Origin: Algibacter marinivivus
Lineage (GTDB): Bacteria; Bacteroidota; Bacteroidia; Flavobacteriales; Flavobacteriaceae
NCBI RefSeq assembly: GCF_003143755.1
Contig: NZ_QFRI01000004.1
Coordinates: forward strand, 62,001 to 126,000
DNA length: 64,000 nt
Direction of reading: 5' to 3'
Below are positions 1,527 through 63,947 of this stretch, in pieces. Each line of letters opens with the position of its first letter. Positions within the stretch are counted from its first letter, which is position 1. Made by a program: the position numbers and the translations under genes. The notes below the pieces were generated by a model. The model had not been told where the DNA came from, did not search any database, and saw only the letters and a program-made list of their open reading frames with translations.

Positions 1527-1653
1527 GCGTTAAGGATTGCAGCCGTTCGACTATTACTTAATAGTCTTAACCTTTTTGTTTTAGCAAAAAGATACAGCGG
1601 AAAGCCTGACGACAAAATTAAACCTTTTTTTAATTTTGTGGTAACGCCCAAAT
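1527..1653 (-). repeat. Dispersed structured repeat, copy A
   Basis: This copy fills much of the 318-bp gap between the aldolase and accD. Read on the minus strand it begins TTTGGGCGTTACC and ends CAATCCTTAACGC, the ends shared by all six copies. Inside are three hairpins: CAAAATTAAA with its complement, CTTTTTG/CAAAAAG, and GACTATT-AAGT-AATAGTC. It is the longest copy, with an extra hairpin near its right end. No open reading frame or transposase is associated. The rest of the gap holds the aldolase terminator and the accD leader. Confidence 0.8.
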
Positions 1654-1704
1654 GATTTTATTTACTTAGGTAATTGTAATCGCTTGTTTTTTAGATAAAT
1701 AAAC

Positions 1705-1740
1705 AAAAAAGGTCCTGTTGATTTACAGAACCTTTTTTTT
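1705..1740 (-). terminator. Terminator of the aldolase gene
   Basis: Stem AAAAAAGGTCCTGT with its complement (one G:U), followed on the minus strand by a T run. It lies 27 bp past the aldolase stop. Confidence 0.8.
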
Positions 1741-1766
1741 ATGATTGTAGTAAATTTACCTTAAAA

Positions 1767-2834
1767 TTATAAGGTGTTTACGTTGTTTAAGTCTTCGAAC
1801 GCCTTTTTTAAACGTGTTACAAAGGTTTTTTCTCCTTCTCGTAACCAAACTCTTGGGTCGTAGTACTTTTTGTTTGGTGCGTCATCTCCATCAGGATTAC
1901 CAATTTGAGATTTTAAATACTCTGATTTAGCACCCATATAATCTCTAATACCACTCATAAAAGCATATTGTAAATCGGTATCAATATTCATTTTAATTAC
2001 ACCGTAGCTAATACCTTCTCGAATTTCTTCTACTGTAGAACCAGATCCACCGTGGAATACAAAATCAATATGGTTGTGTTCTACACCATATTTTTTTGTG
2101 ATATATTCTTGAGAATTTTTTAAGATTTTTGGAGTTAGTTTAACGTTTCCTGGTTTGTAAACACCGTGAACGTTTCCAAAAGCAGCAGCAATAGTAAACT
2201 GTGGACTAACTTTACTTAATTCTTCATAAGCATATGCAACTTCTTCAGGTTGTGTATATAATTTAGAAACATCAACATCACTGTTATCAACACCATCTTC
2301 TTCACCACCTGTTATACCTAGCTCAATTTCTAAAGTCATGCCCATTTTAGACATTCTTTCTAGATATTGCTTACAGATTTCGATATTTTCTTCAATTGGT
2401 TCTTCAGATAGGTCAATCATATGAGAACTGAATAATGATTTTCCAGTTTCTTTATAATGAACTTCACTAGCATCTAATAAACCATCAATCCAAGGTAATA
2501 GTTTTTTAGCACAGTGGTCTGTATGTAAAATTACAGGAACACCATAAGCCTCAGATAAAGTATGCACATGTTTTGCGCCAGCAACGGCACCAGCAATTGC
2601 AGCTTTTTGACCATCATTACTTAATCCTTTACCTGCATTAAATTGTGCACCTCCGTTTGAGAATTGAATTATTACTGGAGCATTTAAATCTCTTGCAGTT
2701 TCTAAAACCCCGTTTATAGTATCTGAACCGATAACATTAACTGCTGGTAAAGCATAATTGTTAGCTTTTGCATGGTTGAATATAGCTTGAACTTCCTTAC
2801 CTGTAGCTACTCCTGGTTTTATATTGTGTCCCAT
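1767..2834 (-). CDS. fbaA: Class II fructose-bisphosphate aldolase
   Basis: Zinc-dependent aldolase that cleaves fructose-1,6-bisphosphate to dihydroxyacetone phosphate and glyceraldehyde-3-phosphate, or the reverse in gluconeogenesis. The 355 residues match the class IIA (E. coli FbaA) length. Residues about 103-110, LHTDHCAK, hold a zinc-ligand histidine and the catalytic aspartate. Further family motifs are ELGITGGEEDGVD, FGNVHGVYKPGNV, and FHGGSGS near residue 265. It is a single-gene unit with its own -7 promoter element and terminator. Confidence 0.96.
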   Translation of the reverse strand: MGHNIKPGVATGKEVQAIFNHAKANNYALPAVNVIGSDTINGVLETARDLNAPVIIQFSNGGAQFNAGKGLSNDGQKAAIAGAVAGAKHVHTLSEAYGVPVILHTDHCAKKLLPWIDGLLDASEVHYKETGKSLFSSHMIDLSEEPIEENIEICKQYLERMSKMGMTLEIELGITGGEEDGVDNSDVDVSKLYTQPEEVAYAYEELSKVSPQFTIAAAFGNVHGVYKPGNVKLTPKILKNSQEYITKKYGVEHNHIDFVFHGGSGSTVEEIREGISYGVIKMNIDTDLQYAFMSGIRDYMGAKSEYLKSQIGNPDGDDAPNKKYYDPRVWLREGEKTFVTRLKKAFEDLNNVNTL

Positions 2835-2870
2835 TTTTTTTAATTAAATATGATTAGAAATTAGTGAGTA

Positions 2871-2878
2871 CAAAAGTA
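2871..2878 (-). promoter_or_regulatory. -7 promoter element of fbaA
   Basis: TACTTTTG on the minus strand fits the Bacteroidota -7 consensus TAnnTTTG and lies 37 bp before the fbaA start. No clear -33 TTTG is seen. Confidence 0.55.
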
Positions 2879-2968
2879 ATGATTTTTTAAATACTTGTAA
2901 GTTGTTTTTGGTCTTGAAAATACTAAATGTACACTAAAACGTTATAGTGTAGCTTGTGTAAAATAGGA

Positions 2969-5488
2969 TTAAAAAGGGTAGTTAATACCTATGTTATATA
3001 CTGCATTAGCAAAGTTATAATCATTAAACCATCTGTTTTCATCTCTATAAGAAGGATCGTAAGTTTTAAAACCAATATCGAATCTAAAGATGAAAAAACT
3101 AAAATCATAGCGTAAACCAAAACCTGATCCTACAGCTATATCTTTTAATGAATTTAGACTTGAAAAAGTTGCTCTATCATCTTCAACATTATCTAATACA
3201 TTCCAAATGTTACCAGCGTCAAGAAAAAGAACTCCGTTTAAATCACCAAAAATATTAAAGCGTTGTTCTGCACTAAATGCTATTTTTAGGTTTGCTTCAT
3301 TAAATTCGTTTGTTGTTTCAGAGCTTCCTGGGCCTAAATTATAAGCAGTCCAAGCGCGGTTATCGTTTGGTCCTCCTCCAAAGAAACTTTTTGCAAAAGG
3401 AATACTGTTTGAGTTTCCATAAGGAATAGCAATACCAAAAAATGCTCGGGTGGCTAACACATTTTTCTTGCCTAAATCCCAATGCTTTATATAATCAAAT
3501 TCAGTTTTCACATATTGAGAATAAGCCACATTAAGTAGTTCATAACGTCCATCACTGTCTTTTTTTAGTCCTAAAAGTTTTGAGGTACTTGCTAATAAGT
3601 TTCCTGCTAATTCAAGTTTAAAACGAAATATGGAAAAATCATTATCAAATAAATTAGTTCGTTGGTCTTTGGTATAACTGAAACTTGAAGACAGAATAAG
3701 GTTGTTTTCAGTTAATCTATTTTTACGTTCGTCAATATTATTAATTGTTTGACGTTGCGTAGACGAAATCTCATTAGGTGTTGGTGTAGCTAAAGCATAA
3801 TTTATAAAATCATTGGCACCCTCGGGCCTTGTTAAATCATCAGTTGTAAAATTAACATCTTTGGCAATTTGGTTTAATGAGTTGAAAGAATTATTGTAAA
3901 CTCTAAAATAGTTATCAGTATTTAAGTTTCTAACGTATTGAACATTAAACAGGTCTAACCTATTTGTAACCTTACTGCTCGGAAACCAATTATAACTAAA
4001 GTTTCCACTAAAAGTTTGCTTGTCTAACCCAATATTAGTTTGACTTGTTAATGCTAAACCAATACGAGTACTTGGAGACATATATTTTGGGATGATGTTT
4101 TCGGTATAGAATGGAGAAAATAACCTCGGAATTGTTAATTTTAAATCAGCTCCAAACTCATTAATATCAAAGAATGGATCATCATCTTCTTTTCCATCTT
4201 TTGATGCTCCAATTGAAGCAATACCAGATATTTCAAGAGTTTCAGCGCCTCTAAAAACATTTCTTATTTTCAAACTTGGGTTTAATGAAAATCCAACAGT
4301 TTGAATGTTACTTTGAGATACATCAGCACTAAAACCTAGGCTAAACTTTTTTAAAGGTGTAAGTCTAATAGTATCACTTAGCGTATTGTCGTCATTTTCA
4401 ACATATTCTATATTTGGATACTTAAATGTTTTAAGTTCGTTGATATACCTGTAAGTACGTGTTCTGTCTATATCTTTATAAACTTGTCCGGGATTAATAA
4501 AAACTGCATCTGTTAAAGCTTTTGGTCTATAAAGCATATCACCATAGCTGTATAACTTGTAACCGCCATATGAAATAGAATCTTTAAACGGTTTGTTTCT
4601 GTTCTCAAAAGTGTAATCTGTAATAATATTTACATCACTAATTCTGTAAATTTCAAAAGGTTCACGACGAATAGAATCTGGAGTTCTTATCGCTCTATCT
4701 TGAATTTTTAAACCAACATTTACTTTTTTATTGGTACCAATGGTATCCATTTCAAAAGTTATATAATCTTGATTAAAATGATAAATCCCGGAGTTTCTTA
4801 AATCTGAAGAAATTCTATCTCGTTCTTGCTCAAAATTAGAAGATCTATACTGTTGTCCGCTTTTTATAAAAGCATTCTTTTTGATGTTTTGATATAATGA
4901 ATCTACAATTGGTGATTTTATAATTTTAGAAATAGAATCAATTAAAAAGGCTTGTTTGGTTTCTACATTGTATTTAATTTCAGCTCTTTTATTATCTTTT
5001 CTTTCAATATCATAGTCGATTTTAACGTCAAACCAACCATTATTAATATAATAATCTTTAAGACGTCTTAAAGAGCGTTTTGTTTTATCTTCACTAACAA
5101 TAACAGGTGCTTCACCAGTTTTTTTTAGCCAGTTGTTAAAACCTAGAACAGATTGTTTTAATTTATCAACTTGTTTTTTTGAATATCGCCGTCTTAAACG
5201 TTCTCTTCTATTGGCTTTTTTGTCTAACCAAGATTCAAATAATGAATCTCTATGAGGTCTAGCCATATTATAAATATGTAAACGTAAAGGAATATTAGCT
5301 ATTTTTCTATTTGGTTTTTGGTATAGTAAGTTGTTTATAGTTTCAGTATTGTCTTTTTTACCATTAACAATAACTGAAGTTTTGGTAAGTAAGTGTTCCT
5401 CTTTAGCAACTCTTTTTACTGCATCACAAGAATGTAAATATCCTGTTAGCAATACTAAAATTGATATTTTTAAGAGTTGTTTTTGCAA
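2969..5488 (-). CDS. tamL: TamA-like outer-membrane lipoprotein TamL (BamA/Omp85 superfamily)
   Basis: An Omp85-superfamily outer-membrane protein, the Bacteroidota TamA-like lipoprotein thought to work with TamB in outer-membrane protein or lipid traffic. The N-terminus is a lipoprotein signal ending LHSC (lipidated Cys21). POTRA-like segments follow (about residues 25-330), then a C-terminal 16-strand barrel-type region. The barrel carries the typical SFFGGGPNDNRAWT segment (variant of the lid-lock region) and ends in aromatic residues, INYPF. The 839-residue length fits the TamL family. It diverges from the neighbouring RNA methyltransferase. That arrangement next to porT and ubiE looks like a conserved flavobacterial block, from general knowledge rather than any comparison made here. 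Confidence 0.85.
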   Translation of the reverse strand: MQKQLLKISILVLLTGYLHSCDAVKRVAKEEHLLTKTSVIVNGKKDNTETINNLLYQKPNRKIANIPLRLHIYNMARPHRDSLFESWLDKKANRRERLRRRYSKKQVDKLKQSVLGFNNWLKKTGEAPVIVSEDKTKRSLRRLKDYYINNGWFDVKIDYDIERKDNKRAEIKYNVETKQAFLIDSISKIIKSPIVDSLYQNIKKNAFIKSGQQYRSSNFEQERDRISSDLRNSGIYHFNQDYITFEMDTIGTNKKVNVGLKIQDRAIRTPDSIRREPFEIYRISDVNIITDYTFENRNKPFKDSISYGGYKLYSYGDMLYRPKALTDAVFINPGQVYKDIDRTRTYRYINELKTFKYPNIEYVENDDNTLSDTIRLTPLKKFSLGFSADVSQSNIQTVGFSLNPSLKIRNVFRGAETLEISGIASIGASKDGKEDDDPFFDINEFGADLKLTIPRLFSPFYTENIIPKYMSPSTRIGLALTSQTNIGLDKQTFSGNFSYNWFPSSKVTNRLDLFNVQYVRNLNTDNYFRVYNNSFNSLNQIAKDVNFTTDDLTRPEGANDFINYALATPTPNEISSTQRQTINNIDERKNRLTENNLILSSSFSYTKDQRTNLFDNDFSIFRFKLELAGNLLASTSKLLGLKKDSDGRYELLNVAYSQYVKTEFDYIKHWDLGKKNVLATRAFFGIAIPYGNSNSIPFAKSFFGGGPNDNRAWTAYNLGPGSSETTNEFNEANLKIAFSAEQRFNIFGDLNGVLFLDAGNIWNVLDNVEDDRATFSSLNSLKDIAVGSGFGLRYDFSFFIFRFDIGFKTYDPSYRDENRWFNDYNFANAVYNIGINYPF

Positions 5489-5605
5489 ATGAAATTAGAG
5501 TTAATTTGTGTTTTAGACTTTAAAAGAGAACAGTATTTGTAAGTTTGTAATTAACAATGTTGTTGAACGATTCAAAAATACATTATTTAAACCTAAAAAA
5601 TATAA

Positions 5606-6322: not shown

Positions 6323-6341
6323 TTTTTAGTAAAAACTGATT

Positions 6342-7073: not shown

Positions 7074-7077
7074 ATAA

Positions 7078-7803: not shown

Positions 7804-7820
7804 ATCTTAAAAATTTTGTG

Positions 7821-7828
7821 CAAAGATA
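7821..7828 (-). promoter_or_regulatory. -7 promoter element of ubiE-porT
   Basis: TATCTTTG on the minus strand (TAnnTTTG consensus), 18 bp before the ubiE start, giving a leader of roughly ten bases. Confidence 0.55.
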
Positions 7829-7908
7829 AACTTTTAGAAAAGCATTACATAATAGGATTCTAAATAATTATATTGAATTGATTCCGTGACGGGATATCTA
7901 TTTTGTAG

Positions 7909-7916
7909 TATATTTG
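7909..7916 (+). promoter_or_regulatory. -7 promoter element of trkA-trkH
   Basis: TATATTTG matches TAnnTTTG. It predicts a leader of about 120 bases before trkA, long for this phylum and containing several short ATG frames. Confidence 0.5.
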
Positions 7917-7952
7917 TTTTACTTTTTATGATTAAAGAAAAATGAAACCGTT

Positions 7953-8033
7953 ATGATTAAAGACTATCATAATTTATTAAAGAGAATCATTTTTTTCTCT
8001 TACTGGTTACATCTTACTTTTAAAAAAAGATGA
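7953..8033 (+). CDS. Possible 26-codon leader ORF upstream of trkA
   Basis: An ATG frame of 26 codons lies inside the predicted trkA leader and ends 10 bp before the trkA ATG. The peptide starts MIKDYHNLLKR, has a hydrophobic and aromatic centre (IIFFSYWLHL) and a basic end (FKKR). Two shorter frames (MIKEK and MKPL) precede it, and ATGATTAAAG occurs twice. It could be a regulatory upstream ORF, a tiny membrane peptide or chance. There is no convincing ribosome binding site. Confidence 0.25.
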   Translation: MIKDYHNLLKRIIFFSYWLHLTFKKR

Positions 8034-10903: not shown

Positions 10904-11002
10904 TTTGGGCGTTACCACAAGGGTCGCGCTTTACACTACAAGTCCTCGTTCTCCCGATTGCTATCGGGATCACTGTGGGCTTTCCGTTGCAATCGCTAAC
11001 GC
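10904..11002 (+). repeat. Dispersed structured repeat, copy B
   Basis: Begins TTTGGGCGTTACC and ends CAATCGCTAACGC. Inner hairpin CCCGATTGCTATCGGG. It belongs to the subtype with TACAAGTCCTCG in the left half and CACTGTGGGCTTTCC in the right half, shared with copies C and E. It sits just after trkH, on the same strand. Confidence 0.8.
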
Positions 11003-18245: not shown

Positions 18246-18362
18246 TTTGGGCGTTACCCCGAAAAGGGGTCAGGCTTTCCGTTACAAGTCCTCGCTTTCC
18301 CTTAACCCCGATAGCTATCGGGGTCGGGACCGCTGTGGGCTTTCCACTACAATCCTTAACGC
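18246..18362 (+). repeat. Dispersed structured repeat, copy C
   Basis: Begins TTTGGGCGTTACC and ends CAATCCTTAACGC. Contains CCCC-gaaaa-GGGG near the left end and the perfect palindrome CCCCGATAGCTATCGGGG in the centre. GGCTTTCCGTTACAAGTCC on the left is echoed by GGCTTTCCACTACAATCC on the right. It occupies part of the 400-bp gap between the DGPF gene and the next gene; the remainder is the hairpin structure listed next. Confidence 0.85.
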
Positions 18363-18405
18363 GGAAAAAGGAATTGATTGAGTGTTCTTAACTTTTTTTT
18401 GGAGA

Positions 18406-18547
18406 TTCGTTTAACGTGTTTGTGTATGAGTAGTAGCGAATTAATAATCACTACTTTTTCGGAAAGTAATTTACAAAATAAAAAGTAATAGCGATTTGAA
18501 TTATTACTCAAATCGCTATTACTTATACACGTTGTTAGCAAACGTTA
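18406..18547. repeat. attC-like imperfect hairpin, left border of the AraC module
   Basis: Outer ends are GTTTAAC (18409-18415) and GTTAGCA (18534-18540). Arms GTGTATGAGTAGTAGCGA (18422-18439) and its near complement at 18513-18530 pair at 16 of 18 positions. A second, perfect 17-bp hairpin (AAGTAATAGCGATTTGA, 18483-18499, with 18508-18524) competes for the same right arm. The 12-bp TTCGTTTAACGT at 18406 is exactly inverted at 20975-20986, and GTTAGCAAACGTTA at 18534 recurs inverted with two mismatches at 20922-20935. The layout resembles an integron attC site, 20 bp past the stop of the adjacent gene. Confidence 0.55.
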
Positions 18548-18559
18548 TTTTAATTGATT

Positions 18560-18913
18560 TTAAACAACTATCTCAGATTTATGTAAACTAACTACAGTTA
18601 AAACTGCAATCCCATTAATCCAATAATAATAGGCATCTATTCCTTCGAACGAAAAAGCAAAAGGTGCAATAATAAATACAATTGCGACTATAAAGTCTAC
18701 TACTAGATGCATTTTATAAGAAATTACTTTAAGAACTCCCAAATGATGGTCTGTTAGCAATGTTAAAATAAAAGCTGCAATTCCTGTTGCCACCGAAAGT
18801 TGTAAGGCTAAAGGACTTGAATCTCCTAATCCAAGTAGAAAAGGAAGCACTATTAACGCAATAGCAACTGGATAATCTAAAAATGCGTGAATTCTCTTGG
18901 TTACAAATTTCAT
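18560..18913 (-). CDS. SPW-repeat-like four-span membrane protein
   Basis: 117 residues with four hydrophobic segments arranged as two similar halves, each opening with a short basic and aromatic stretch (IHAFLDYPVAIALIVLPFLLG and MHLVVDFIVAIVFIIAPF). This fits the SPW-repeat type of small membrane protein; no function is known. It is the last gene of the four-gene module; the hairpin border lies just beyond its stop. 11 bp separate it from the YHS gene upstream. Confidence 0.6.
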   Translation of the reverse strand: MKFVTKRIHAFLDYPVAIALIVLPFLLGLGDSSPLALQLSVATGIAAFILTLLTDHHLGVLKVISYKMHLVVDFIVAIVFIIAPFAFSFEGIDAYYYWINGIAVLTVVSLHKSEIVV

Positions 18914-18924
18914 AACTCTATTTT

Positions 18925-19398
18925 TTAATTATGAGTTTTACTTAAGTTTTTCCAATTCTTATCTGCTACACCTTTTAATTTGCTATGATTATTTTCTGCC
19001 AACCATAATTGTTTTGCATCAAGTTCCACATTGTTTAAATACAGATAGTATTTTCCATCTTCTACAATAAATTTATTTGGGTCAACTCTAAATTTTGCTC
19101 CTGCATAACAACCAAACGCACAAAATCCGCCATATTGAGGAAGGTATTTCCCAGGATTTTTGTCAAACGTAGTTTTTTGTTCTGCTGATGTGAAATAGTA
19201 TACTACTTTGTTATGTTCAGATTTATGTGTTTTGTTTCCTTTTTGAGCTAATCCCAAATCTAAGTATGAAACAGGACTGTAACCTTGTAATGCTATATTA
19301 CTATTATCAATGTTATTCGCCATTTTATCTTGAGCAAATACTACTGAACTCATTATTAGAGCTAATCCTAAAATTGTTGTTTTAATTAAATTTTTCAT
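18925..19398 (-). CDS. Exported YHS-domain protein
   Basis: 157 residues. Signal peptide ending SVVFAQD, then a YHS-type domain: GYSPVSYLDLG, YYFTSAEQKTTFDKNPGKY, PQYGGFCAFGC. YHS domains are small, often cysteine-containing, and linked to metal (copper, heavy metal) or redox handling; the two cysteines in GGFCAFGC could bind metal. Mature protein is periplasmic or beyond. It belongs with the SPW-like and SnoaL-like genes on one strand, probably one transcript. Confidence 0.75.
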   Translation of the reverse strand: MKNLIKTTILGLALIMSSVVFAQDKMANNIDNSNIALQGYSPVSYLDLGLAQKGNKTHKSEHNKVVYYFTSAEQKTTFDKNPGKYLPQYGGFCAFGCYAGAKFRVDPNKFIVEDGKYYLYLNNVELDAKQLWLAENNHSKLKGVADKNWKNLSKTHN

Positions 19399-19430
19399 TT
19401 TCTTATATTTTAAGTTGTTATTTATTCTAA

Positions 19431-19784
19431 TTATTCTGCGTTGAAGTATTCTTCTTGAATTACTTTTCCTTCATTATTCCAAATTCTACGAATGATTTCG
19501 TGCCAGTAAATTTTACTTCCATCCTTCATATCGAAATCGAATGTGAATTCTGATGCTGATACATTTCCATCTACAATAGAATGATGATGTGTAATGCCAT
19601 TTACTTTTGCAATTGCACCAGCAAAACCTTCCATTTTTGCAATCATTTCTGTTTTACCTGTGGTTCCTCCATTTCCGTAATCTGAAGTATTAGCATTGTC
19701 TGCAAAGAATTCTTTTACGGCATCAACGATTGCTCCTTGTGAAACTATCGCATCCATTTTTTGTACTTGTTCTTTAATATTCAT
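19431..19784 (-). CDS. SnoaL/NTF2-like protein
   Basis: 117 residues, cytoplasmic (no signal). A helix-rich start (IVDAVKEFFADNANTSDYG) is followed by strands ending in WHEIIRRIWNNEGKVIQEEYF, the usual NTF2-like cone fold with a C-terminal antiparallel sheet. These proteins bind small hydrophobic ligands or act as isomerases or hydrolases; nothing in the sequence fixes the substrate. First gene of the module after the AraC gene. Confidence 0.7.
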   Translation of the reverse strand: MNIKEQVQKMDAIVSQGAIVDAVKEFFADNANTSDYGNGGTTGKTEMIAKMEGFAGAIAKVNGITHHHSIVDGNVSASEFTFDFDMKDGSKIYWHEIIRRIWNNEGKVIQEEYFNAE

Positions 19785-19853
19785 CCTTTTGTGTTTTAAA
19801 ATTACACTGCAAAGATGAGATGAGATTAAAGTATACTTGCTACAAAAAAAAGA

Positions 19854-20912
19854 CTAAGAATTGTACTTTTTTAATTTGAATTCGGAAGGTGTAACTTTAG
19901 AATAATGTTTAAAGAATCTCGAAAAATGATTTGGTTCTTCAAATCCTAGTTGTCTAGAAATTGAGACAACGGATTGTCCTTCGAGTATCATTAATTTAGC
20001 AGAGTTGATTAATTCTAATCGTATTAATTGACCTAAAGAAGTGTTCATTTTAGCTCGAACTTTATTAGACAATGCTTTTATAGAGAGGTTCATTTCATTA
20101 GCGTAAAACTCAAGAGACCTTTCTTGCGTGTGATATTTTTTTAGAAGTTCTAAAATATCTTGTGAGAATAAATCTCTATTTTCAAAATCGAAATTTTGTC
20201 TAAACTGTTTTGGCGTTTGTCCAATTGATTTTTTAAAAACTCTATTGAAATAAGCGTCATCTTTATATCCTAAATCATAAGAAATTTCTTGAATGTTTTT
20301 ATTAGTGAACGCTACTTCTTTAAGGCTTTCTTGTAGCCTTTTTGATGTCATTAAGTTTTTGACAGATAAACCAATTTTATTTTTAATTAGAGCTTGAGCA
20401 TTATATCCTCTGTCGTTAATTAAATTGACTAAATCAATACTTGTTAATTTATTTGAATATTCTTTGTCAATTATGTCTTTAGCATCAAAAATTACTTGGT
20501 ATTCTTCTTTATTAGCTTTGAAGGGATTTTGCCAAAACCATTGTTTAGAAGATACATCAATTATATCAGCAGAATTATTAGTTAAGGCTGTTTCAGATAG
20601 GAACGATTTACATTCCTCACATTCTAATAAGTCAATATAACCTAAAGAAATTAGGTGTTTGAATAATACTCTTACATCATTATCATAAAATTTGCTTTCA
20701 TTTGAAAATTCTATTCGTCTAACTGTAAAGTCATCTGACAAGAATTTAATGTATTGTCCTTTTTCTAGAAAGATTGCTTTTTCCTGCCAATCAAAATAGT
20801 TCTTAAAATCAACCTGAATGCTTCCTTTTCCTGAAAGAATATGAATAAGAGTATGACTTTCTATAAAGTATACTTTATTAATTTCTGGTGAAAATTTTTC
20901 AACTTTTTGCAT
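19854..20912 (-). CDS. AraC-family regulator with two tandem DNA-binding domains
   Basis: 352 residues. The N-terminal ~130 residues resemble a cupin-like sensor (SHTLIHILSGKGSIQVDF). Two complete AraC-type DNA-binding domains follow. The first is about residues 145-245 and includes IQEISYDLGYKDDAYFNRVFKK and GQTPKQFR. The second, about 255-350, includes VVSISRQLGFEEPNHFSRFF and KVTPSEFKL. AraC proteins usually have one. Between the domains the sequences differ clearly, so this is an old duplication. It likely controls the three genes downstream on the same strand. A cluster of cysteines (LLECEECKSF) lies in the linker. Confidence 0.85.
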   Translation of the reverse strand: MQKVEKFSPEINKVYFIESHTLIHILSGKGSIQVDFKNYFDWQEKAIFLEKGQYIKFLSDDFTVRRIEFSNESKFYDNDVRVLFKHLISLGYIDLLECEECKSFLSETALTNNSADIIDVSSKQWFWQNPFKANKEEYQVIFDAKDIIDKEYSNKLTSIDLVNLINDRGYNAQALIKNKIGLSVKNLMTSKRLQESLKEVAFTNKNIQEISYDLGYKDDAYFNRVFKKSIGQTPKQFRQNFDFENRDLFSQDILELLKKYHTQERSLEFYANEMNLSIKALSNKVRAKMNTSLGQLIRLELINSAKLMILEGQSVVSISRQLGFEEPNHFSRFFKHYSKVTPSEFKLKKYNS

Positions 20913-20921
20913 TCAGTTGGG

Positions 20922-20986
20922 TAATGTTTGCTAATGTTTTTACGGATATGCGTCGTTTTAATGACTTATATCCGACGTTAAACGAA
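20922..20986. repeat. attC-like hairpin, right border of the AraC module
   Basis: Holds TGCTAAT (20929-20935), the stem CGGATAT/ATATCCG, an inner GTC/GAC pair, and GTTAAAC (20977-20983). Both its end sequences are inverted copies of those at 18406-18547. The 460-bp gap from 20913 to 21372 also holds a terminator, the pruA fragment and about 130 bp with no recognisable feature. Confidence 0.5.
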
Positions 20987-21038
20987 GGTAGTTGAAAATT
21001 TTTACAAAGTCAAGAACTAATATTTTCCTAGAAATAAA

Positions 21039-21067
21039 AAAGAGGCTCCCTAAAGGAAGCCTCTTTC
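21039..21067 (-). terminator. Terminator past the displaced pruA 3' end
   Basis: Stem AAAGAGGCTCC with GGAAGCCTCTTT (one bulge) and a T run on the minus strand. It follows the truncated pruA fragment as a terminator would follow a working gene, but differs in sequence from the terminator after intact pruA. Confidence 0.75.
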
Positions 21068-21090
21068 TAATTTTTCTTGTACAAGAATAT

Positions 21091-21240
21091 CTATTCTCCT
21101 AAAAAAGGATATCTATAATCTGTAGGCGTAACAAATGTTTCTTTTATCATTCTAGGAGATACCCAACGTAATAAGTTTTGAGCACTACCTGTTTTATCAT
21201 TTGTTCCAGAGGCTCTTGCGCTTGCAAACGGTTGTTTTTC
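21091..21240 (-). pseudogene. Displaced 3' end of pruA
   Basis: In frame on the minus strand this encodes about 48 residues matching the last 49 of the intact pruA at 22815, with shared sequence RASGTNDK-x-GSAQNLLRWVSP and MIKETFVTP, ending FLGE then TAG. Over about 138 bp I count eight mismatches, including a 50-plus-base stretch with none. Homology stops abruptly near 21232. There is no start codon and the conserved GGAR near the join reads ASAR, so it is a non-functional remnant. It has its own terminator. Confidence 0.85.
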
Positions 21241-24597: not shown

Positions 24598-25320
24598 ATG
24601 TGTACGGTTACAATAGTTCCCCAAGAAAATAATGGTTTTGTATTAACTTCAAATCGAGACGAAACTCCTGATAGAGTATCGTTGGTTCCCGATTTTTATA
24701 CTGTTGATGGTGTTAAATTATTGTTTCCAAAAGATAAAATGGGAGGAACTTGGATTGGGGTGAGCGAAAAAAATCGTGTGGTTTGCGTGCTTAATGGTGC
24801 TTTTATTAAACATGAAAGACAACCTAGTTACAGAAAAAGCAGAGGCATTGTGGCAAACGATTTTATGGTTTCTGATGATATTATAAAAACCGTTGAAGAC
24901 TATAATTTAATAAATATTGAACCCTTTACTATAGTTGTTGCTGATTGGAATAATACTTTAAAATTCTATGAATTAGTTTGGGATGGTAAGCATAAGCATT
25001 TTATTGAATTGCCTTTAGAATCTAGAATTTGGTCGTCTTCTACTTTGTATAACGAAACAATGCAAAGGGAACGCCAACAGTGGTTTGAAAATTTCGAAAC
25101 GCTTTATGATTTATATGCAGATTCATTATTAGAATTTCATAAAAATACGGATGTTGAAAATATGGACTATGGTGTAATTATGAATAGAGGTTTTGTTAAA
25201 ACGACCAGCATTACACAGGTTAAAAAAAATGGCAATACCGTTGATATGCATTATGAAAACCTTGAAAGTAAAACGGTAACATCTAAATCATTCAATCTTC
25301 CAGAAGTCGTTAATGGATAA
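24598..25320 (+). CDS. NRDE (TANGO2-like) family protein
   Basis: 240 residues from the ATG at 24598. I prefer this start because NRDE proteins begin Met-Cys, giving MCTVTIVPQ, with the cysteine as a likely N-terminal-nucleophile residue. The name-giving motif is TSNRDETPDR, and GGTWIGVSEKNRVVCVLNG follows. Homologues include TANGO2; proposed roles range from haem trafficking to hydrolysis, none proven for bacteria. It overlaps the next gene by 8 bp, so they are translationally coupled. Confidence 0.85.
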   Translation: MCTVTIVPQENNGFVLTSNRDETPDRVSLVPDFYTVDGVKLLFPKDKMGGTWIGVSEKNRVVCVLNGAFIKHERQPSYRKSRGIVANDFMVSDDIIKTVEDYNLINIEPFTIVVADWNNTLKFYELVWDGKHKHFIELPLESRIWSSSTLYNETMQRERQQWFENFETLYDLYADSLLEFHKNTDVENMDYGVIMNRGFVKTTSITQVKKNGNTVDMHYENLESKTVTSKSFNLPEVVNG

Positions 25321-26305
25321 TACAGGTATTATTTTAACATTGGCATATCCTGATACTATTGTTATGGTTTCAGAAGAATGGTTTTCTCCTTTTTTAAGAT
25401 TTTTAGGCGTTGGAAAAAAAGATTATTTACGTGCTGGTCATGCAGCGTTAGTATTAATAAATAAAGAAACTGGTGTTTTAGAATATCATGATTTTGGACG
25501 CTATATTACCTCTGAGCCTAATGGGAGAGTAAGAGGAAGGGATACCGATAACGAACTCCATTTCCCTATCAAAGCTGAAATTGAAAACGACACGATTATA
25601 AATCTAGAAGCTATTCTTGAGTTTTTAGCTACGCACCCAAAATTAACACATGGTGATGGTAAATTGGTGGCCTCGGTATGTAATGCTGTGGATTATAATA
25701 AAGCCAGAACACATATTACTAAAATGCAAAACAAACACTTTATTCGATATGCGGCATTTATAAAAGATGCCTGTAATTGTGCACGTTTTGTAACGGATAC
25801 ATTAATTGCTTCTGTGACTAATCCTGAAATTAAAAAGAGTCTTGAAAACTCTAAATGGTTTACACCAAGTACAGTAGGTAATGTGTTACTAGCTGATACT
25901 GAAAAACATCCTTATGTCATTTCTGAAACTGGTGTTATTGCAAAATTTAAAGGTTCTCAAAAAAGTGAAAACTTACGTTGTTTTTTAGATAGATTGAAAG
26001 ATCATGAAGTTAACTTGGTTGGAACTCAAAAACCTAAACCTGTTAATGGTTTGCATGAAAAAGCCCAATGGCTTTCTGGAATTGCTGCTGGAGCGTGGTT
26101 TGAATTACATGATTTAGGAAGTAAAACAGAATATAGATTTAGACGCATTTCGCCATACGAGAATATAGATTGTGATGCTGTTTTTACTATTGATGATGTT
26201 GGTTTTGATTACGATTTAGAATTTGAGTTTATACATTATTCTAATTGTAAATTCTTTCATCTGAAACAAGATGATAAGGTTTTTAAGTTTGAACTTAAAT
26301 TATAG
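25313..26305 (+). CDS. DUF6695-like protein with a possible permuted papain-like domain
   Basis: 330 residues, no signal peptide. The N-terminal ~190 residues contain a His in a strand (LRAGHAALVLIN), a following EYHDFGRY, and later a Cys in DACNCARFVTDTL. His before Cys, with an H-A-x-L-V strand, is the order in circularly permuted NlpC/P60-like (LRAT/YiiX-type) thiol enzymes. The C-terminal ~100 residues (GIAAGAWFELHD onward) form a separate beta-rich domain. The family name is from memory; the enzyme suggestion is inference. Coupled to the NRDE gene. Confidence 0.55.
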   Translation: MDNTGIILTLAYPDTIVMVSEEWFSPFLRFLGVGKKDYLRAGHAALVLINKETGVLEYHDFGRYITSEPNGRVRGRDTDNELHFPIKAEIENDTIINLEAILEFLATHPKLTHGDGKLVASVCNAVDYNKARTHITKMQNKHFIRYAAFIKDACNCARFVTDTLIASVTNPEIKKSLENSKWFTPSTVGNVLLADTEKHPYVISETGVIAKFKGSQKSENLRCFLDRLKDHEVNLVGTQKPKPVNGLHEKAQWLSGIAAGAWFELHDLGSKTEYRFRRISPYENIDCDAVFTIDDVGFDYDLEFEFIHYSNCKFFHLKQDDKVFKFELKL

Positions 26306-26825: not shown

Positions 26826-26912
26826 GCGTTAGGGATTGAAGCGGCATCCTTTTTTGCCATTAAAAGCAAAAAAGATATAGCGGAAAGCCCGACCCTTGTG
26901 GTAACGTCCAAA
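26826..26912 (-). repeat. Dispersed structured repeat, copy D
   Basis: On the minus strand begins TTTGGACGTTACC and ends CAATCCCTAACGC. The centre TTTTTTGC-ttttaatg-GCAAAAAA is almost identical to copy F at the end of the window. It lies between the convergent VOC and apaG genes. Confidence 0.85.
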
Positions 26913-45539: not shown

Positions 45540-46304
45540 TTATTTATAAACAACAGGAATAATCTCGCCTTTTGCTAAACAATATTTGTCAATTTCACTT
45601 TTAGAAAATTCTGTTGTATAGTCAACTTCTTCAACTTTAAAGCCAATGCTTTTAAGCTTGCTGAAATAATCTAGTCCATAAATCCTAACATGGTCGTATT
45701 GACCAAAGATTTTTGCGCGTTCTTTTTTATCTGTGATGGTATTATCTTCAAAAGTTTTTTCTCTGCTCAAATCTTGAGGTATCTGTAGTATTCCCATACC
45801 TCCAACTTTTAATACACGATATAATTCCTGCATCGCTTTTTTGTCGTCTGGGATGTGCTCTAAAACATGGTTACATAAAATGACATCAAACTCATTGTCT
45901 TTAAAAGGAAGGTTACAAATATCTGCTTTAACATCTGCTAAAGGTGAATATAAATCTGTAGTAACATAATCTAGATTATTCATACTCCTGAAGCGTTTAT
46001 AAAAAGCTTGTTCAGGAGCAAAATGAAGCACTTTAAAATTTTCAGAAAAGAATTTGGTTTCATTTTGAAGATAAAGCCACAGCAACCTATGGCGTTCTAA
46101 ACTTAGTGTTGAAGGCGATAACACATTATTTCGTTGGTTTCCATATCCGTAAGGTAGAAAAGTTTTAAAACTTTTTCCATCTATAGGATCTGTGAATTTG
46201 TTCCCTTTTAAAAAAAAAGCTAGAACTGGACGTATAATATAACTCAACCTAATTAATATAGGTCTTGGAATAATGTTTAGTATTAATTTGAAGAGTTTTT
46301 TCAA
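45540..46304 (-). CDS. Class I SAM-dependent methyltransferase
   Basis: 254 residues. An N-terminal hydrophobic stretch (ILIRLSYIIRPVLAFFL) could bind the membrane. The methyltransferase core starts around residue 88 (KVLHFAPEQAFYKRF), with ICNLPFKDNEFDVILCNHVLEHI and YRVLKVGGMGILQIP. Motif I lacks the usual Gly-rich form and reads HFAPEQ. The substrate is not identifiable. Last gene of a group map-cupin-methyltransferase, 6 bp after the cupin gene. Confidence 0.8.
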   Translation of the reverse strand: MKKLFKLILNIIPRPILIRLSYIIRPVLAFFLKGNKFTDPIDGKSFKTFLPYGYGNQRNNVLSPSTLSLERHRLLWLYLQNETKFFSENFKVLHFAPEQAFYKRFRSMNNLDYVTTDLYSPLADVKADICNLPFKDNEFDVILCNHVLEHIPDDKKAMQELYRVLKVGGMGILQIPQDLSREKTFEDNTITDKKERAKIFGQYDHVRIYGLDYFSKLKSIGFKVEEVDYTTEFSKSEIDKYCLAKGEIIPVVYK

Positions 46305-52198: not shown

Positions 52199-52287
52199 GC
52201 GTGAGGGATAGTAGAGGAAAGCCCACAGCGCTTTTTTGCGCGAGGACTTGTAACGGATAGCCCGACCCTTTAGGGGCACGCCCAAAT
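52199..52287 (-). repeat. Dispersed structured repeat, copy E
   Basis: On the minus strand begins TTTGGGCGTGCCC and ends CTATCCCTCACGC, so both ends carry matching changes (CGTG and CACG) that keep their pairing. Inner hairpins GCCCCTAAAGGG and GCGCAAAAAAGCGC. Lies between the tRNA terminator and the convergent pepE gene. Confidence 0.8.
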
Positions 52288-58525: not shown

Positions 58526-58559
58526 TCTAATATAGTAATCATAATAACTTAAATTAAGA

Positions 58560-60854: not shown

Positions 60855-60873
60855 TATCAAATCTTAATATTTT

Positions 60874-60904
60874 AAAAAAGCCGATTGAATAAATCGGCTT
60901 TTTT
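60874..60904 (+). terminator. Terminator of the M1 protease operon
   Basis: Stem AAAAAAGCCGATT with AATCGGCTTTTTT, 20 bp past the second M1 gene. Confidence 0.85.
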
Positions 60905-60943
60905 ATTACAATAATTTTAAATGGTTTAATAAAAACAACTCAC

Positions 60944-60951
60944 TATATTTG
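60944..60951 (+). promoter_or_regulatory. -7 element of tatA, adjacent to its start codon
   Basis: TATATTTG matches TAnnTTTG and ends 4 bp before the GTG start of tatA, predicting a leaderless or near-leaderless mRNA. Confidence 0.5.
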
Positions 60952-60955
60952 TACT

Positions 60956-61243
60956 GTGATTCAGCAAGCAACATTTTTATTTATAAGTGGCGCAGAAATA
61001 GCATTCATTCTATTTATTGCTATTATGGTTTTTGGAGCCGATAAACTGCCAGAAATTGCTCGTGGTTTAGGGAAAGGTATGCGCACTCTTAAAGATGCTA
61101 CCAATGATATAAAGCACGAAATCACTAAAACTGCTGAAAATAATGGTATAGATACCAGTATCACTAAAGATGTTAAAAAAGAATTAGATAAAGTAAAAGA
61201 TGATATTGAAGATTTTACTGGTTCTGTAAAGCGTAAATTTTAA
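60956..61243 (+). CDS. tatA: Twin-arginine translocase subunit TatA/TatE
   Basis: 95 residues with a GTG start at 60956; no ATG precedes the membrane helix. Helix AEIAFILFIAIMVFGADKLPEIARGLGKG has the FG hinge and the amphipathic helix after it, then a charged tail rich in Asp and Lys. It forms the pore that exports folded Tat substrates. tatC is not in the window. Four-base overlap tail to tail with the O-methyltransferase. Confidence 0.92.
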   Translation: MIQQATFLFISGAEIAFILFIAIMVFGADKLPEIARGLGKGMRTLKDATNDIKHEITKTAENNGIDTSITKDVKKELDKVKDDIEDFTGSVKRKF

Positions 61244-61884
61244 ATTTTCCTACTAATTGTTAACCCATCTCTTATGGGAAAAATTACGGTTTCAACGCGG
61301 TTATCTTCTTTTAAAAGTTTATTGTATTCAATTAAAGCAGGAGTGGATATGTCTTCTTTTTTAAAAGTTTTATCTAAAACTTTTCCACTCCATAAAACAT
61401 TATCAGATAAAATAATACCACCAGAGTTTAGTTTGTTAATAATCACATTGAAGTAATTCGAGTAATTATCTTTATCGGCATCAATAAACACCAAATCAAA
61501 AGTAGTATCAAGAGTTGGAATAATATCTAGAGCATTGCCTAAATGCTGATAAATTTGTTTACCATAACCAGATTTATCAAAATATTTACGCTGAAAATCT
61601 AAAAGTTCCTCATTAACATCAATAGTGTGTAAAACTCCATCTTTTTGCATACCTTCAACTAAACACAAAGCGGAGTAGCCAGTGTAAGTACCAATTTCTA
61701 ATATGTTTTTTGGATTAACAAGCTTAGAAATCATACTTAAAACCCTACCTTGATAATGCCCACTGAGCATCCTCGGTTGTAAAATTTTTTGATACGTTTC
61801 TCTATTTAGCTGTTGTAGTAACTCAGGCTCATTTTCTGAATGAGAAACTACATAATCATCTAAGTCTTCAGGTATAAAATGCAA
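61240..61884 (-). CDS. O-methyltransferase (caffeoyl-CoA/catechol type)
   Basis: 214 residues, SAM-dependent class I. Motif I LEIGTYTGYSALCL, then VHTIDVNEELLDFQRKYF-like LHTIDVNEELLD, and DLVFIDADKDNYSNYFNVI with the metal-binding aspartates and the asparagine. IILSDNVLWSGKVLD follows. Substrate not predictable; a catechol or related ring is likely. A 14-bp gap separates it from the small membrane protein upstream. Confidence 0.9.
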   Translation of the reverse strand: MHFIPEDLDDYVVSHSENEPELLQQLNRETYQKILQPRMLSGHYQGRVLSMISKLVNPKNILEIGTYTGYSALCLVEGMQKDGVLHTIDVNEELLDFQRKYFDKSGYGKQIYQHLGNALDIIPTLDTTFDLVFIDADKDNYSNYFNVIINKLNSGGIILSDNVLWSGKVLDKTFKKEDISTPALIEYNKLLKEDNRVETVIFPIRDGLTISRKI

Positions 61885-61898
61885 ATTCTAAGGTGTTA

Positions 61899-62096
61899 TT
61901 ATTCGCTTTCGGGTTCAGCTTTACTTCCCATAAAAAATAAAATAGCTCCAACTACAACAAGTCCAATTTTAATAATCCAAGCAGTAGTATCTCCCCAAGA
62001 ATATATCCACATAAGTAATGATGGTACTCTATCGAAGAAATTTAAGACAATAGCTAAAACACCAAATATTGCCATGTAAGAACCTATTTTTTTCAT
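61899..62096 (-). CDS. Small two-span membrane protein
   Basis: 65 residues: MKKIGSYMAIFGVLAIVLNFF and AWIIKIGLVVVGAILFFMG are two hydrophobic segments joined by VPSLLMWIYSWGDT; the acidic end is SKAEPESE. No family recognised. It sits between the O-methyltransferase and ACMSD-like genes on the same strand. The overlapping plus-strand frame has no such pattern. Confidence 0.65.
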   Translation of the reverse strand: MKKIGSYMAIFGVLAIVLNFFDRVPSLLMWIYSWGDTTAWIIKIGLVVVGAILFFMGSKAEPESE

Positions 62097-62144
62097 GATT
62101 TTATAGTTTGATTAGTGGTTAAATATAAACAATAAAAATGTAGG

Positions 62145-63233
62145 CTAAGAGTTTTTAGTAATTCTATTTACTAATTTTTGTTTTGCAGTATCATCATCAC
62201 CACATAACCATTGAATAACATTGTTTTCCCAAATATCATCATATTCTTTTTCATTTATAATATCACGTTCAATAGCCAAATCCAATAATTTTCCTGGGTA
62301 AGAAGACTGTGGCTTACTTTCCATTTCACCTAAAGGATAAGGATCATCAAGCCCCATGATAACTTGTTTAGAACCATGATTTCTAATTAATAATTCCAAC
62401 CCACCAGTATCATGCACCAAGGTGTCAAAGAAGATGTTTTTATGCCCTACAGCTTTTCTAGGGTGGTGTTTGCCTTCAAATAAATCAGGCCTACCATCAA
62501 AACCTTGTATACGTCTTCCTAAGTTAATTTGTGCTAATTGACCACCATGTGCAAAACAGGTTCGCATATTTGGATATTTATCTTGATAACCATTTAAGGT
62601 TAAAAAATGATAAGCATCACCACATTGCGCTAACATCCATATTAAATGAAAACGCCATGATGTGTTTTCTAATTTTATGAACTTCTCTCCGTCATAGGGA
62701 TGAATTTCAACTGCCAAATTATACTTATCCGCCAATTCAAAAATAGGCTCGTTTTCTTCATCAAAAATACAACGCCATGTGCCAATAGTATCCATATAAT
62801 GCGTTGGTAAACAAAGTAATTGCATACCATGAGTTTCAACACAACGCTCAATTTCCCAACAAGCACTTCTAATAAAAGCAGGATGCACCACAAACCCGCA
62901 TGTAAATTTACTAGGGTTGTCATGTTGTACTTTGGCATTAAAATCATTTTGAAAACGCAGTGCTTTCTTCATTTCTTCAACACGCAATCCGTTTCCGTAA
63001 AGTTGAGATAAATTCAAAACAACCGCATGATCAAGTTTATTACGTTCCATCCATTCCAGTTTTTCATCTAAGAAAAAACTAGAATCAGTAACAGGGCGTT
63101 TCCAGCCTTTTTGAAGCATGAATTTTCGGTCTTTATCCACCCAAAAAATACCTTTTTCACGCATGAATTCAGGAATTTCTTCTGGGTAAGGAAGTAAGTG
63201 TGAATGACCGTTAATTCTAAGTTTGCGTTTCAT
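62145..63233 (-). CDS. Amidohydrolase, 2-amino-3-carboxymuconate-6-semialdehyde decarboxylase-like
   Basis: 362 residues of the ACMSD group. Metal site HSH near the N-terminus (RINGHSHLLP), the third His in LCLPTHYMDTIGTW, and His and Asp in the C-terminal part (CFAHGGQL, MGLDDPYPLGEM). Length is near 340-360 as for ACMSD. It follows the 3-hydroxyanthranilate dioxygenase gene in one direction; together they process the kynurenine-branch product ACMS, so tryptophan degradation is the likely role. Gene name nbaD is used in some bacteria. Confidence 0.85.
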   Translation of the reverse strand: MKRKLRINGHSHLLPYPEEIPEFMREKGIFWVDKDRKFMLQKGWKRPVTDSSFFLDEKLEWMERNKLDHAVVLNLSQLYGNGLRVEEMKKALRFQNDFNAKVQHDNPSKFTCGFVVHPAFIRSACWEIERCVETHGMQLLCLPTHYMDTIGTWRCIFDEENEPIFELADKYNLAVEIHPYDGEKFIKLENTSWRFHLIWMLAQCGDAYHFLTLNGYQDKYPNMRTCFAHGGQLAQINLGRRIQGFDGRPDLFEGKHHPRKAVGHKNIFFDTLVHDTGGLELLIRNHGSKQVIMGLDDPYPLGEMESKPQSSYPGKLLDLAIERDIINEKEYDDIWENNVIQWLCGDDDTAKQKLVNRITKNS

Positions 63234-63311
63234 GTTGAGGTCCTGAGAGGTCAGGAATCTTTAAGTTGTATTATTAGTTATCCTAAATTTATTTCAGGAT
63301 ATCATCATTAA

Positions 63312-63845
63312 TTAATCTATTTTAACCTTTTTAGGTGGCTGCATAACTTCGCCACAATTAGGGCATCTTCGTTTGTTTTTATCGCCGTAGTATTCGTCAA
63401 AAATCTTAGGCATATCCGTTTCAATATTATCTAGAGTAAAATCTTCTTCATAAAGCTTTGTTACACAATTTTCACAAAACCAAAGCAACGCATCTTTAAC
63501 ACCTTTTTCTCTAGGATATTCAATAACCAACCCAACAGTATTAGCCCCTCGTTGTGGAGAATGTGGCACTTTTGGTGGCAATAAAAATATTTCACCTTCC
63601 CTTATATGTATGTCTTTTGGAGTTCCTTTATCAATTACTTTTAATACAATATCGCCTTCAACCTGATAGAAAAACTCAGGTGTTTCGTTGTAATGATAAT
63701 CCTTTCTACTATTTGGTCCGCCAACAACCATTACTATAAAATCACCATCTTTCCAAACCACTTTATTTCCCACAGGAGGCTTTAAAAGATGTCTATTTTC
63801 TTCTATCCAAGCTTTAAAATTTATCGGAGGGAATAATTTACTCAT
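63312..63845 (-). CDS. nbaC: 3-hydroxyanthranilate 3,4-dioxygenase
   Basis: 177 residues. A ring-cleaving Fe(II) cupin: WKDGDFIVMVVGGPNSRKDYHYNETPEFFYQ with His and Glu ligands, then EGEIFLLPPKVPHSPQR with the third His. The C-terminal rubredoxin-like part binds a second iron (FCENCVTKL and CPNCGEVM). This is the usual prokaryotic form with the iron-binding tail. It makes the unstable semialdehyde that the ACMSD-like enzyme decarboxylates. The leader is taken up by repeat copy F from 11 bp before the ATG. Confidence 0.93.
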   Translation of the reverse strand: MSKLFPPINFKAWIEENRHLLKPPVGNKVVWKDGDFIVMVVGGPNSRKDYHYNETPEFFYQVEGDIVLKVIDKGTPKDIHIREGEIFLLPPKVPHSPQRGANTVGLVIEYPREKGVKDALLWFCENCVTKLYEEDFTLDNIETDMPKIFDEYYGDKNKRRCPNCGEVMQPPKKVKID

Positions 63846-63855
63846 TGTTTTATGT

Positions 63856-63947
63856 TTTGGGCGTTACCCCCAAAAAGGGGTCAGGCTATACGCTATATCT
63901 TTTTTGCTTTTAAGGGCAAAAAAGGATGCCGCTTCTATCCTTAACGC
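63856..63947 (+). repeat. Dispersed structured repeat, copy F
   Basis: Begins TTTGGGCGTTACC and ends CTATCCTTAACGC. Hairpin CCCC-caaaaa-GGGG near the left end and TTTTTTGC-ttttaagg-GCAAAAAA in the centre, almost the same as copy D. It starts 10 bp upstream of the nbaC start, in the opposite reading direction. Confidence 0.85.

Follow-up and report, generated by a model that had tools for sequence, protein, structure and literature searches.

The enterobacterial intergenic palindromes known as ERIC/IRU, and others similar to them, occur in many copies, keep their places between species and include nested insertions. REP/BIME sequences, which go with RAYT, are palindromic, intergenic and numerous, and the title of one study (PMC3733652) names a GTAG/CGTC tag. 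The attC sites of integrons pair strictly, have a variable tip and read YAAC first and GTTR last. Flavo-1 (Rfam RF01705; Weinberg 2010, PMC2864571) has been an orphan motif since 2010, and the sections of an RNA-seq study that treat it (PMC9723704) assigned it no function.

The window, a 64,000-nucleotide stretch of an Algibacter marinivivus contig, contains six repeats that belong to Flavo-1. All six lay where a first-pass annotation had placed them, and its two subtypes (A, D and F; B, C and E) were recovered by a pattern finder as types I and II, respectively. The strand given to the copies in that annotation is the opposite of Rfam's. TTT stands immediately before each of the six finder-defined copies.

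1527..1653, minus strand: Flavo-1 copy A, type I; its side hairpin is long and its long arm carries an additional hairpin (finder bounds 1527-1649)
10904..11002, plus strand: Flavo-1 copy B, type II (finder bounds 10907-11002)
18246..18362, plus strand: Flavo-1 copy C, type II, closing a cassette platform (finder bounds 18249-18362)
26826..26912, minus strand: Flavo-1 copy D, type I (finder bounds 26826-26909)
52199..52287, minus strand: Flavo-1 copy E, type II, with a compensated outer stem, GCGTG/CACGC (finder bounds 52199-52283)
63856..63947, plus strand: Flavo-1 copy F, type I (finder bounds 63859-63947)

The window repeats share both sequence and core structure with RF01705, and the comparison with Flavo-1 proposed in the first-pass annotation was borne out in graded fashion. 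Copies D and F score 59.4 and 55.2 bits, above the gathering cut-off of 42; the type II copies E, B and C fall below it (37.1, 34.2 and 33.2 bits; E<=0.0034), and copy A gave no match at E<=1 in the search of the window. Marginal Rfam matches near 20951-21164 and at 46137 were taken as chance. The Rfam model, in the alignments shown, pairs the long arm only, leaving the outer stem and side hairpin outside, and four type III/IV copies are absent from the own-genome match list, for which 150 of 827 candidates were scored. With those 150 scored, 90 matches reach E<=1, and 24 of them exceed the cut-off. The exact right end CWATCCCTAACGC occurs 106 times in the 3.34-Mb genome and its reversed pattern not at all, so the repeat is commoner than chance; further genomic copies thus exist, and the genome has more than 100 in all. 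Flavo-1 copies are present in all ten genomes of the genus, and RF01705 was found at E<=1e-5 in 74 of 120 Flavobacteriaceae genomes (36 candidates scored per genome) and in 0 of 14 control genomes.

Flavo-1 elements measure about 75-160 bases and form a three-way junction, in which an outer stem (GCGTTA/TAACGC) meets a side hairpin and a long arm; the side hairpin and the tip of the arm are variable. The covariation claimed for the stems held up. Sixteen pairs in each of 83 full-length copies give 1328 cells, of which 1260 are Watson-Crick, against a mean of 1050 and a maximum of 1075 in 1000 shuffles, and 150 are changed on both sides, against a shuffled mean of 42 and maximum of 55. These figures lean towards structure, since the loci of 80 of the 83 copies were located with the Rfam model, in which structure counts towards the score. 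In addition, every copy was required to match our end patterns, related copies are not independent, and 3 of 86 strings, over-long duplicates of copies already counted, were removed by name. As DNA, copy A takes up the three-way junction (z -5.3, Rfam strand) and z-scores are modest for copies D and E; for copies B and C the minimum-energy DNA fold is not the three-way junction.

Rfam classes RF01705 as Gene; sRNA, whereas the evidence assembled here favours DNA: the copies look like old, slowly moving foldable DNA and not like a made RNA. The preference for DNA over an ncRNA has three grounds: pairing is strictly Watson-Crick, the few G-T and A-C cells show no significant strand bias, and published RNA-seq, in the sections of PMC9723704 that report it, found Flavo-1 matches indistinctly sense or antisense, with many outside transcribed regions. 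The G-U preference on the transcribed strand expected of structured RNA was not seen: over all pairs there are 11 G-T and 16 A-C cells (p 0.44), and 10 of 913 cells in register-safe pairs are G-T (8) or A-C (2), small numbers with p 0.11. That 8 against 2 hints weakly at a strand. A structured small RNA, or an mRNA 3ʹ-end hairpin stabilising or ending transcripts, would fit the Rfam class, this hint and the genomic setting: of 50 genes that lie upstream and run towards the element, 25 end no more than 14 bases away (simple ORF calls), and among the 80 copies for which both neighbours were called, flanks are convergent at 24 and divergent at 12. Such an RNA is nevertheless unlikely: besides the RNA-seq pattern, G-T cells are few among the many two-sided changes, and one site can be occupied by different whole types across species. 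Of the options first raised, a mobile or RNA-structured element (MITE/REP-like or ncRNA), DNA is therefore the favoured one, and its REP/RAYT form found no support, as detailed below. Flavo-1 is probably a non-autonomous chromosomal DNA element that acts via a folded single strand or cruciform, spreads rarely and in some copies closes the far end of a cassette platform. If it is DNA, searches for small RNAs are misdirected.

The positions of Flavo-1 are kept between species, and the interior type can differ at a single site. Ten of 16 copies on a 204-kb contig of one relative, G001, have the same place and orientation in another, G002, by script, and one more does by eye (mean identity 91.6% in aligned blocks >1 kb). 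In nine G001/G002 pairs both copies could be aligned, and none of these shows a type switch; switching is therefore slow. At the site of copy D, type I in its own genome (G000) corresponds to type III in G009, with both flanks homologous, and to type II in G006 and G008; other members of the genus have a decayed copy, a relic or none. The site of copy C, type II here, carries type I in Hyunsoonleella ulvae L142. A type II copy occupies the copy B site in G006 (both flanks match) and in G001 (left flank only), and the copy E site with its GCGTG/CACGC outer stem recurs in G001, in which the stretch covers the right flank alone, and in G002 and G007. By eye, the copy F site in G001 holds a type I copy with a different tip and near-identical flanks.

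This persistence, together with copy number, intergenic structure and nested insertions, likens Flavo-1 by description to ERIC/IRU, from which it differs in its three-way junction and in the different arm types found at one site. Among relatives at the D site and the G001/G002 pairs, no clean empty site or target duplication was found; the earlier observation that no TSD was visible stands, and insertion boundaries were likewise not definable. Nor did a transposase or an autonomous partner come to light, so the mobility of Flavo-1 is an inference, drawn from how many copies there are and from the relics, and the element is at most a candidate MITE.

Many copies, short terminal inverted repeats and relics would also be expected if Flavo-1 derived, as a relic or in non-autonomous form, from a known insertion sequence or REP/RAYT system, and many palindromic intergenic copies are what it has in common with REP/BIME. 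Several results make this origin improbable. The Y1 transposase profile (Y1_Tnp, PF01797) has no match in the own genome at E<=0.01, although 6 of 14 controls match. No long autonomous copy appeared among 24 right ends inspected whether or not a left end lay near, a sample taken from 47 listed without an Rfam match, with 23 listed and 6 unlisted ends (29 of 106) left out and the 83 other copies short by construction of the finder. In that sample a complete left half lies no more than 160 bases from 23 of the 24 right ends, which also speaks against split copies with genes in the long arm, and the remaining one (L354) is a degenerate, shortened copy. Copy D as query gave no match among 72,556 plasmid and 50,697 phage records, and one exact pattern gave none in viral contigs. 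Orientation on contig C1 is not significantly tied to GC-skew half (16+/25- vs 16+/11-, p 0.14).

Copy C caps a cassette platform that spans window positions 18249-21013, with the following parts.

20987..21013, minus strand: promoter-like TTGACTTTGTAAAAATTTTCAACTACC, preceding the attI-like site; similar in most other platform starts inspected
20935..20986, minus strand: attI-like site, TTCGTTTAACGTC, hairpin GGATATAAG..ATCC, GTAAAAACA
18415..20934, minus strand: single gene cassette with two boxes, four genes and an attC-like hairpin
20926-20934: cassette box TTAGCAAAC
19854-20912: cassette gene, AraC-type
19431-19784: cassette gene, weak SnoaL-like match
18925-19398: cassette gene, unknown
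18560-18913: cassette gene, SPW
18534-18543: cassette box GTTTGCTAAC
18363..18414, minus strand: landing box TTAAACGAA (18406-18414) and linker to copy C

From the Bacteroidetes consensus, TTGACTTTGTAAAAATTTTCAACTACC is presumably a promoter. At the same place in H. ulvae L142, a platform without a cassette lies beside the type I Flavo-1.

The link extends across the own genome. Downstream of 16 of 21 dispersed attI-like sites behind promoter-like sequence, a Flavo-1 copy in the same orientation lies within 3 kb (13 of 18 without three hand-added hairpin variants), against a mean of 1.3 and a maximum of 6 in 2000 runs of random placement. Other arrangements number 0 (opposite, downstream), 0 (same, upstream) and 1 (opposite, upstream) among the 21. 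For five of the start sites no Flavo-1 is listed downstream, although inspection by eye reveals a copy at one of them. In G007, five starts have a true end box in view, and three of these lack Flavo-1 within the inspected stretch. About 16 copies share a similar linker next to the attI-like site's end box. Most Flavo-1 copies are solitary, and a platform role therefore cannot be the general one.

Judged from its genes and sites, the neighbouring system qualifies as an integron, with a predicted integrase, an attI-like site and an array with attC-like sites. As in integrons, the platforms beside Flavo-1 have crossovers laid out as x^TT, complementary boxes that are specific to the cassette and attC-like ends that are folded, and cassette arrays follow the integrase gene in relatives: by eye, nine attC-like intergenic stretches lie 3ʹ of the integrase in each of G001 (L337) and G006 (L335). 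In contrast to integrons, the platforms are dispersed, each behind its own promoter-like sequence, and those inspected hold one integron-type gene cassette or are empty. The integrase scores 177 and 201 bits against the integron-integrase profile TIGR02249 (cut-off 265), the profile match being broken into two stretches of which the best ends at profile position 182 or 179; the IntI4 structure was also matched in two stretches, and the protein may or may not have the additional domain specific to IntI. Searches on attG (8 of 92 matches) and on integrons in Flavobacteria, Flavobacteriaceae, Bacteroidetes and Bacteroidota showed no title on dispersed docks of this type, and those on Flavo-1 or flavobacterial intergenic repeats gave two papers altogether, in a scope mostly outside subscription journals.

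The integron-type integrase might act on Flavo-1 itself, which would then be one of the recombination sites of the cassette system. Its fixed orientation, the similar linker in about 16 copies beside the attI-like end box, and strict DNA-type pairing with an attC-like variable tip point that way, as does co-occurrence in 120 family genomes (both 56, Flavo-1 only 18, integrase only 19, neither 27; Fisher p 2e-4, a statistic that ignores kinship and genome size). The core order, however, is the reverse of attC, with GTTA first and TAAC last; because the outer stem carries GTT on its 5ʹ and AAC on its 3ʹ side, or a compensated variant, in place of YAAC/GTTR, Flavo-1 was rejected as an attC site. 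Furthermore, the array stretches L337 and L335 contain no Flavo-1 at the Rfam cut-off, and no integrase was found at E<=1e-50 in 18 of the 74 Flavo-1 genomes, one of which, G079, has 36 scored copies. A substrate role is accordingly improbable, and dependence of Flavo-1 on the integrase was set aside as an association with clear exceptions. Identity is only 33-45% for many of the integrase matches, among which there may be other tyrosine recombinases.

For the DNA element preferred here, a life history can be proposed. Flavo-1 would spread rarely as DNA, moved by some enzyme, and once placed would be inherited, its left end often no more than 14 bases from a stop codon. Its arms may change block by block, either because copies exchange sequence or because small palindromes become nested in them. 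Roughly one in eight copies would be joined to promoter-like sequence and an attI-like site, the pair forming one unit that takes a single integron cassette, with Flavo-1 closing the far end. It is possible, and put forward tentatively, that Flavo-1 forms an integral DNA end-cap for a dispersed docking unit (promoter, attI-like site, landing box, linker, Flavo-1), that an Xer-like integrase moves single cassettes between a home array and many chromosomal docks, and that solitary copies are the spread-out remains or the seeds of docks. If this end-cap reading is true, the 2010 orphan motif gains a function and a distributed integron is described. The platform link points to a Flavobacteriaceae integron whose cassettes are scattered over many sites of the chromosome, every one preceded by a promoter-like sequence of its own, and the fixed-orientation link to single-cassette docks makes a role for Flavo-1 testable. 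Platforms with Flavo-1 also occur in L142, G026 and G140.

The six dispersed intergenic repeats that the first-pass annotation recognized in the window, copies A (1527-1653, -), B (10904-11002, +), C (18246-18362, +), D (26826-26912, -), E (52199-52287, -) and F (63856-63947, +), are confirmed at these positions and are members of the known Flavo-1 family. Five of the six match the Rfam model of this family (RF01705), on the strand opposite to that annotated; D (59.4 bits) and F (55.2 bits) score above the gathering score of 42 bits, E (37.1), B (34.2) and C (33.2) score below it, and copy A gives no match at E<=1. The division into two subtypes also holds, A, D and F being type I and B, C and E type II. 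Further copies exist: the 3.34-Mb Algibacter marinivivus genome (G000) contains 90 RF01705 matches at E<=1, 24 of them above gathering (150 of 827 candidates scored), and 106 exact instances of the right end CWATCCCTAACGC against none of the reversed pattern. The Rfam matches and the right ends, 100 of which were available by position, pool to 138 places, the weakest Rfam matches among them being in part unconfirmed. In the largest contig, a right end lies at both contig ends (C1:19 and C1:1892508), and the repeat may therefore interrupt assembly.

Read in the plus orientation, a copy begins with TTT-GG-GCGTTA (outer stem), a side hairpin CC..GG whose length varies and TC, continues with GGG-C-TW, a 3-base loop, two pairs, another 3-base loop and a distal arm ending in a free tip, and returns with CWATCCC-TAACGC. 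Some further copies belong to types III and IV, which keep the ends common to the family and differ in their arms. The covariation claimed from the window copies was evident in 83 copies (86 strings from loci L001-L087 and the window, minus three over-long duplicates). Watson-Crick pairing holds in 1260 of the 1328 cells of 16 pairs (1000 shuffles: mean 1050, maximum 1075), and 150 cells show two-sided changes (mean 42, maximum 55). These numbers lean towards structure because a structural model was used to find the loci and because the copies are kin to one another. When the six copies are folded as DNA on the Rfam strand (they were also folded as RNA), z-scores range from -0.9 (E) to -5.3 (A), and the junction is the minimum for A, D, E and F and not for B and C. 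The motif YYRCYA lies within 30 bases behind the right end in 34 of 83 copies, compared with 5 and 6 of 83 in two control stretches. At seven loci (L014, L016, L048, L066, L070, L072 and L074), the long-arm tip contains another, nested intergenic repeat (near GTCATTGCGAGGAG or GTCATTCCT), and in the congeneric genome G002 small GC-rich palindromes of the CCTGCCGGCAGG kind lie inside Flavo-1 copies or, at the B site, replace one.

With a neighbouring aldehyde dehydrogenase as query, the top relatives are Flavobacteriaceae, the nearest an Algibacter MAG (95% protein identity), and all ten genomes of the genus (G000 and G001-G009) carry Flavo-1. At the D site, beside the ApaG gene, the same left flank is followed by type I in G000, type III in G009 and type II in G006 and G008; the copy is decayed in G007, a relic in G004 and absent in G002, G003 and G005; in G001, a type I copy lies some 65 bases beyond this place. 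Homology of both flanks reaches the element between G000 and G009. In a tree of two flanking genes, G007 pairs with G009 (support 100), and G006 and G008 share one clade with G001 and G002 (support 81). The C site is type II in G000 and type I in Hyunsoonleella ulvae. For a 204-kb contig of G001, a script finds 10 of 16 copies matched in position and orientation in G002, and an eleventh was recognized by eye; the aligned blocks over 1 kb number 24, with a mean identity of 91.6%. In nine aligned pairs with both copies present, a type switch was not seen by eye, the tips differ and small palindromes are nested. Copies at the E site in G007, G001 and G002 share the compensated outer stem of copy E. 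These comparisons of position, decay and type thus indicate that Flavo-1 is old, inherited in place and decaying, with type changed by block over longer times.

Rfam classes Flavo-1 as an sRNA, and the first-pass annotation had allowed for either a mobile or an RNA-structured element. Excerpts of a Flavobacterium psychrophilum study (PMC9723704) describe several 5ʹ transcribed regions coinciding with Flavo-1 matches, and also matches in sense or antisense indistinctly, many of them outside transcribed regions. Among all pairs, G-T and A-C cells number 11 versus 16 (p 0.44), and among register-safe pairs (913 cells) 8 versus 2 (p 0.11). Because wobble cells are few, strand bias is not significant and different whole arm types occupy one site, the DNA side of the earlier proposal is favoured and the RNA side is not; we infer a DNA element, a reading these observations favour rather than prove. 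In sum, the family behaves here like old DNA that can fold and is rewritten in blocks.

Half of the 50 upstream genes directed towards the left end (25) stop within 14 bases of it (simple ORF calls). Y1_Tnp has no match in G000, copy D as query has none in plasmid or phage records, and one exact pattern found none in viral contigs. Twenty-four right ends were read without choosing those with a left half nearby: 23 are accompanied by a complete left half within 160 bases, the remaining one only by a shortened copy. A long autonomous copy is therefore unlikely, on a reading that covers 77 of the 106 right ends; the shortness of the 83 other copies is built into the finder.

Behind copy C lies a docking unit.

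18363-21013, minus strand: integron-type docking platform holding one cassette (2.5 kb, four genes)
20987-21013, minus strand: promoter-like TTGACTTTGT..
20935-20986, minus strand: TTCGTTTAACGTC with hairpin
Cassette, minus strand, in order: box TTAGCAAAC, four genes (one for an AraC-type regulator), box GTTTGCTAAC, attC-like hairpin
18406-18414, minus strand: landing box TTAAACGAA, then linker, then Flavo-1 copy C

Just before the platform promoter, a strong hairpin with a T run, GAGGCTTCCTTTAGGGAGCCTCTTTTTT (window 21036-21063, -), is terminator-like, and weak Rfam matches cluster there. The C site of H. ulvae (L142) has the platform without a cassette, together with a type I Flavo-1 and different box wording.

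Such docks recur. Three empty starts in G000 read ..AAAAACATTAAACGAA and a fourth ..AAAAACGTTAAACGAA; filled starts are mostly ..AAAAACA^TT[box]..gene..[complement]AAC..hairpin..G^TTAAACGAA. Of 33 start sites, 6 are empty, 11 are without a usable end box and 16 have cassettes read at both ends. In 13 of these 16, at least 6 bases of the start box are complementary to the end box of the same cassette, compared with 12 of 240 mismatched pairings, and the observed sum was reached by 0 of 10000 permutations. This arrangement is the integron crossover layout. A Flavo-1 copy in the same Rfam orientation lies within 3 kb downstream of 16 of 21 start sites, with none opposite downstream, none same upstream and one opposite upstream; random starts gave a mean of 1.3 and a maximum of 6 in 2000 runs. 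The 21 comprise 18 sites (13 with Flavo-1) and three hand-added hairpin variants, all with Flavo-1, and leave out one unconfirmed candidate, C1:147605. A seventeenth start with Flavo-1, C6:175172, was recognized by eye; at C1:76512, one of the 16, the start is empty and Flavo-1 is 1.9 kb away, so this pairing may be fortuitous. Cassette-free units with Flavo-1 occur in two further genomes, G026 (type I) and G140 (type IV by eye). Among seven starts in G007, two (L285, L293) have Flavo-1 following the end box within the stretch read, three (L289, L291, L295) have none in that stretch, and L280 and L297 have no true end box in view. About one in eight Flavo-1 copies behaves as a constant component of cassette-docking sites.

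Published work already mentions integrons in Bacteroidota (PMC9668308, PMC2426708). The A. marinivivus integrase gene, beside pnp and 4 kb left of the window (C6:57184-58301; L127:7184-8301), is split into two ORFs. Each of the nine other genus genomes has a homologue whose match lies in a longer open frame (364-413 aa), and in both copies of G007 one stop interrupts a longer match. Several of these genes lie close to contig ends. Against the integron-integrase profile, the integrase scores 177-201 bits (cut-off 265) in two stretches; it is thus Xer/IntI-like and may lack the IntI-specific domain. By eye, nine attC-like intergenic stretches lie 3ʹ of a Xer/IntI-like integrase in each of L337 (G001:C7) and L335 (G006:C6). 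Across 120 family genomes (integrase matches at E<=1e-50), 56 have Flavo-1 and integrase, 18 Flavo-1 alone, 19 integrase alone and 27 neither. One family genome has 36 scored Flavo-1 copies and no integrase match, so Flavo-1 is not dependent on the integrase. The window also encodes, at 25313-26305, a protein matching TseH-like (PF25218) and DUF6695 domains.
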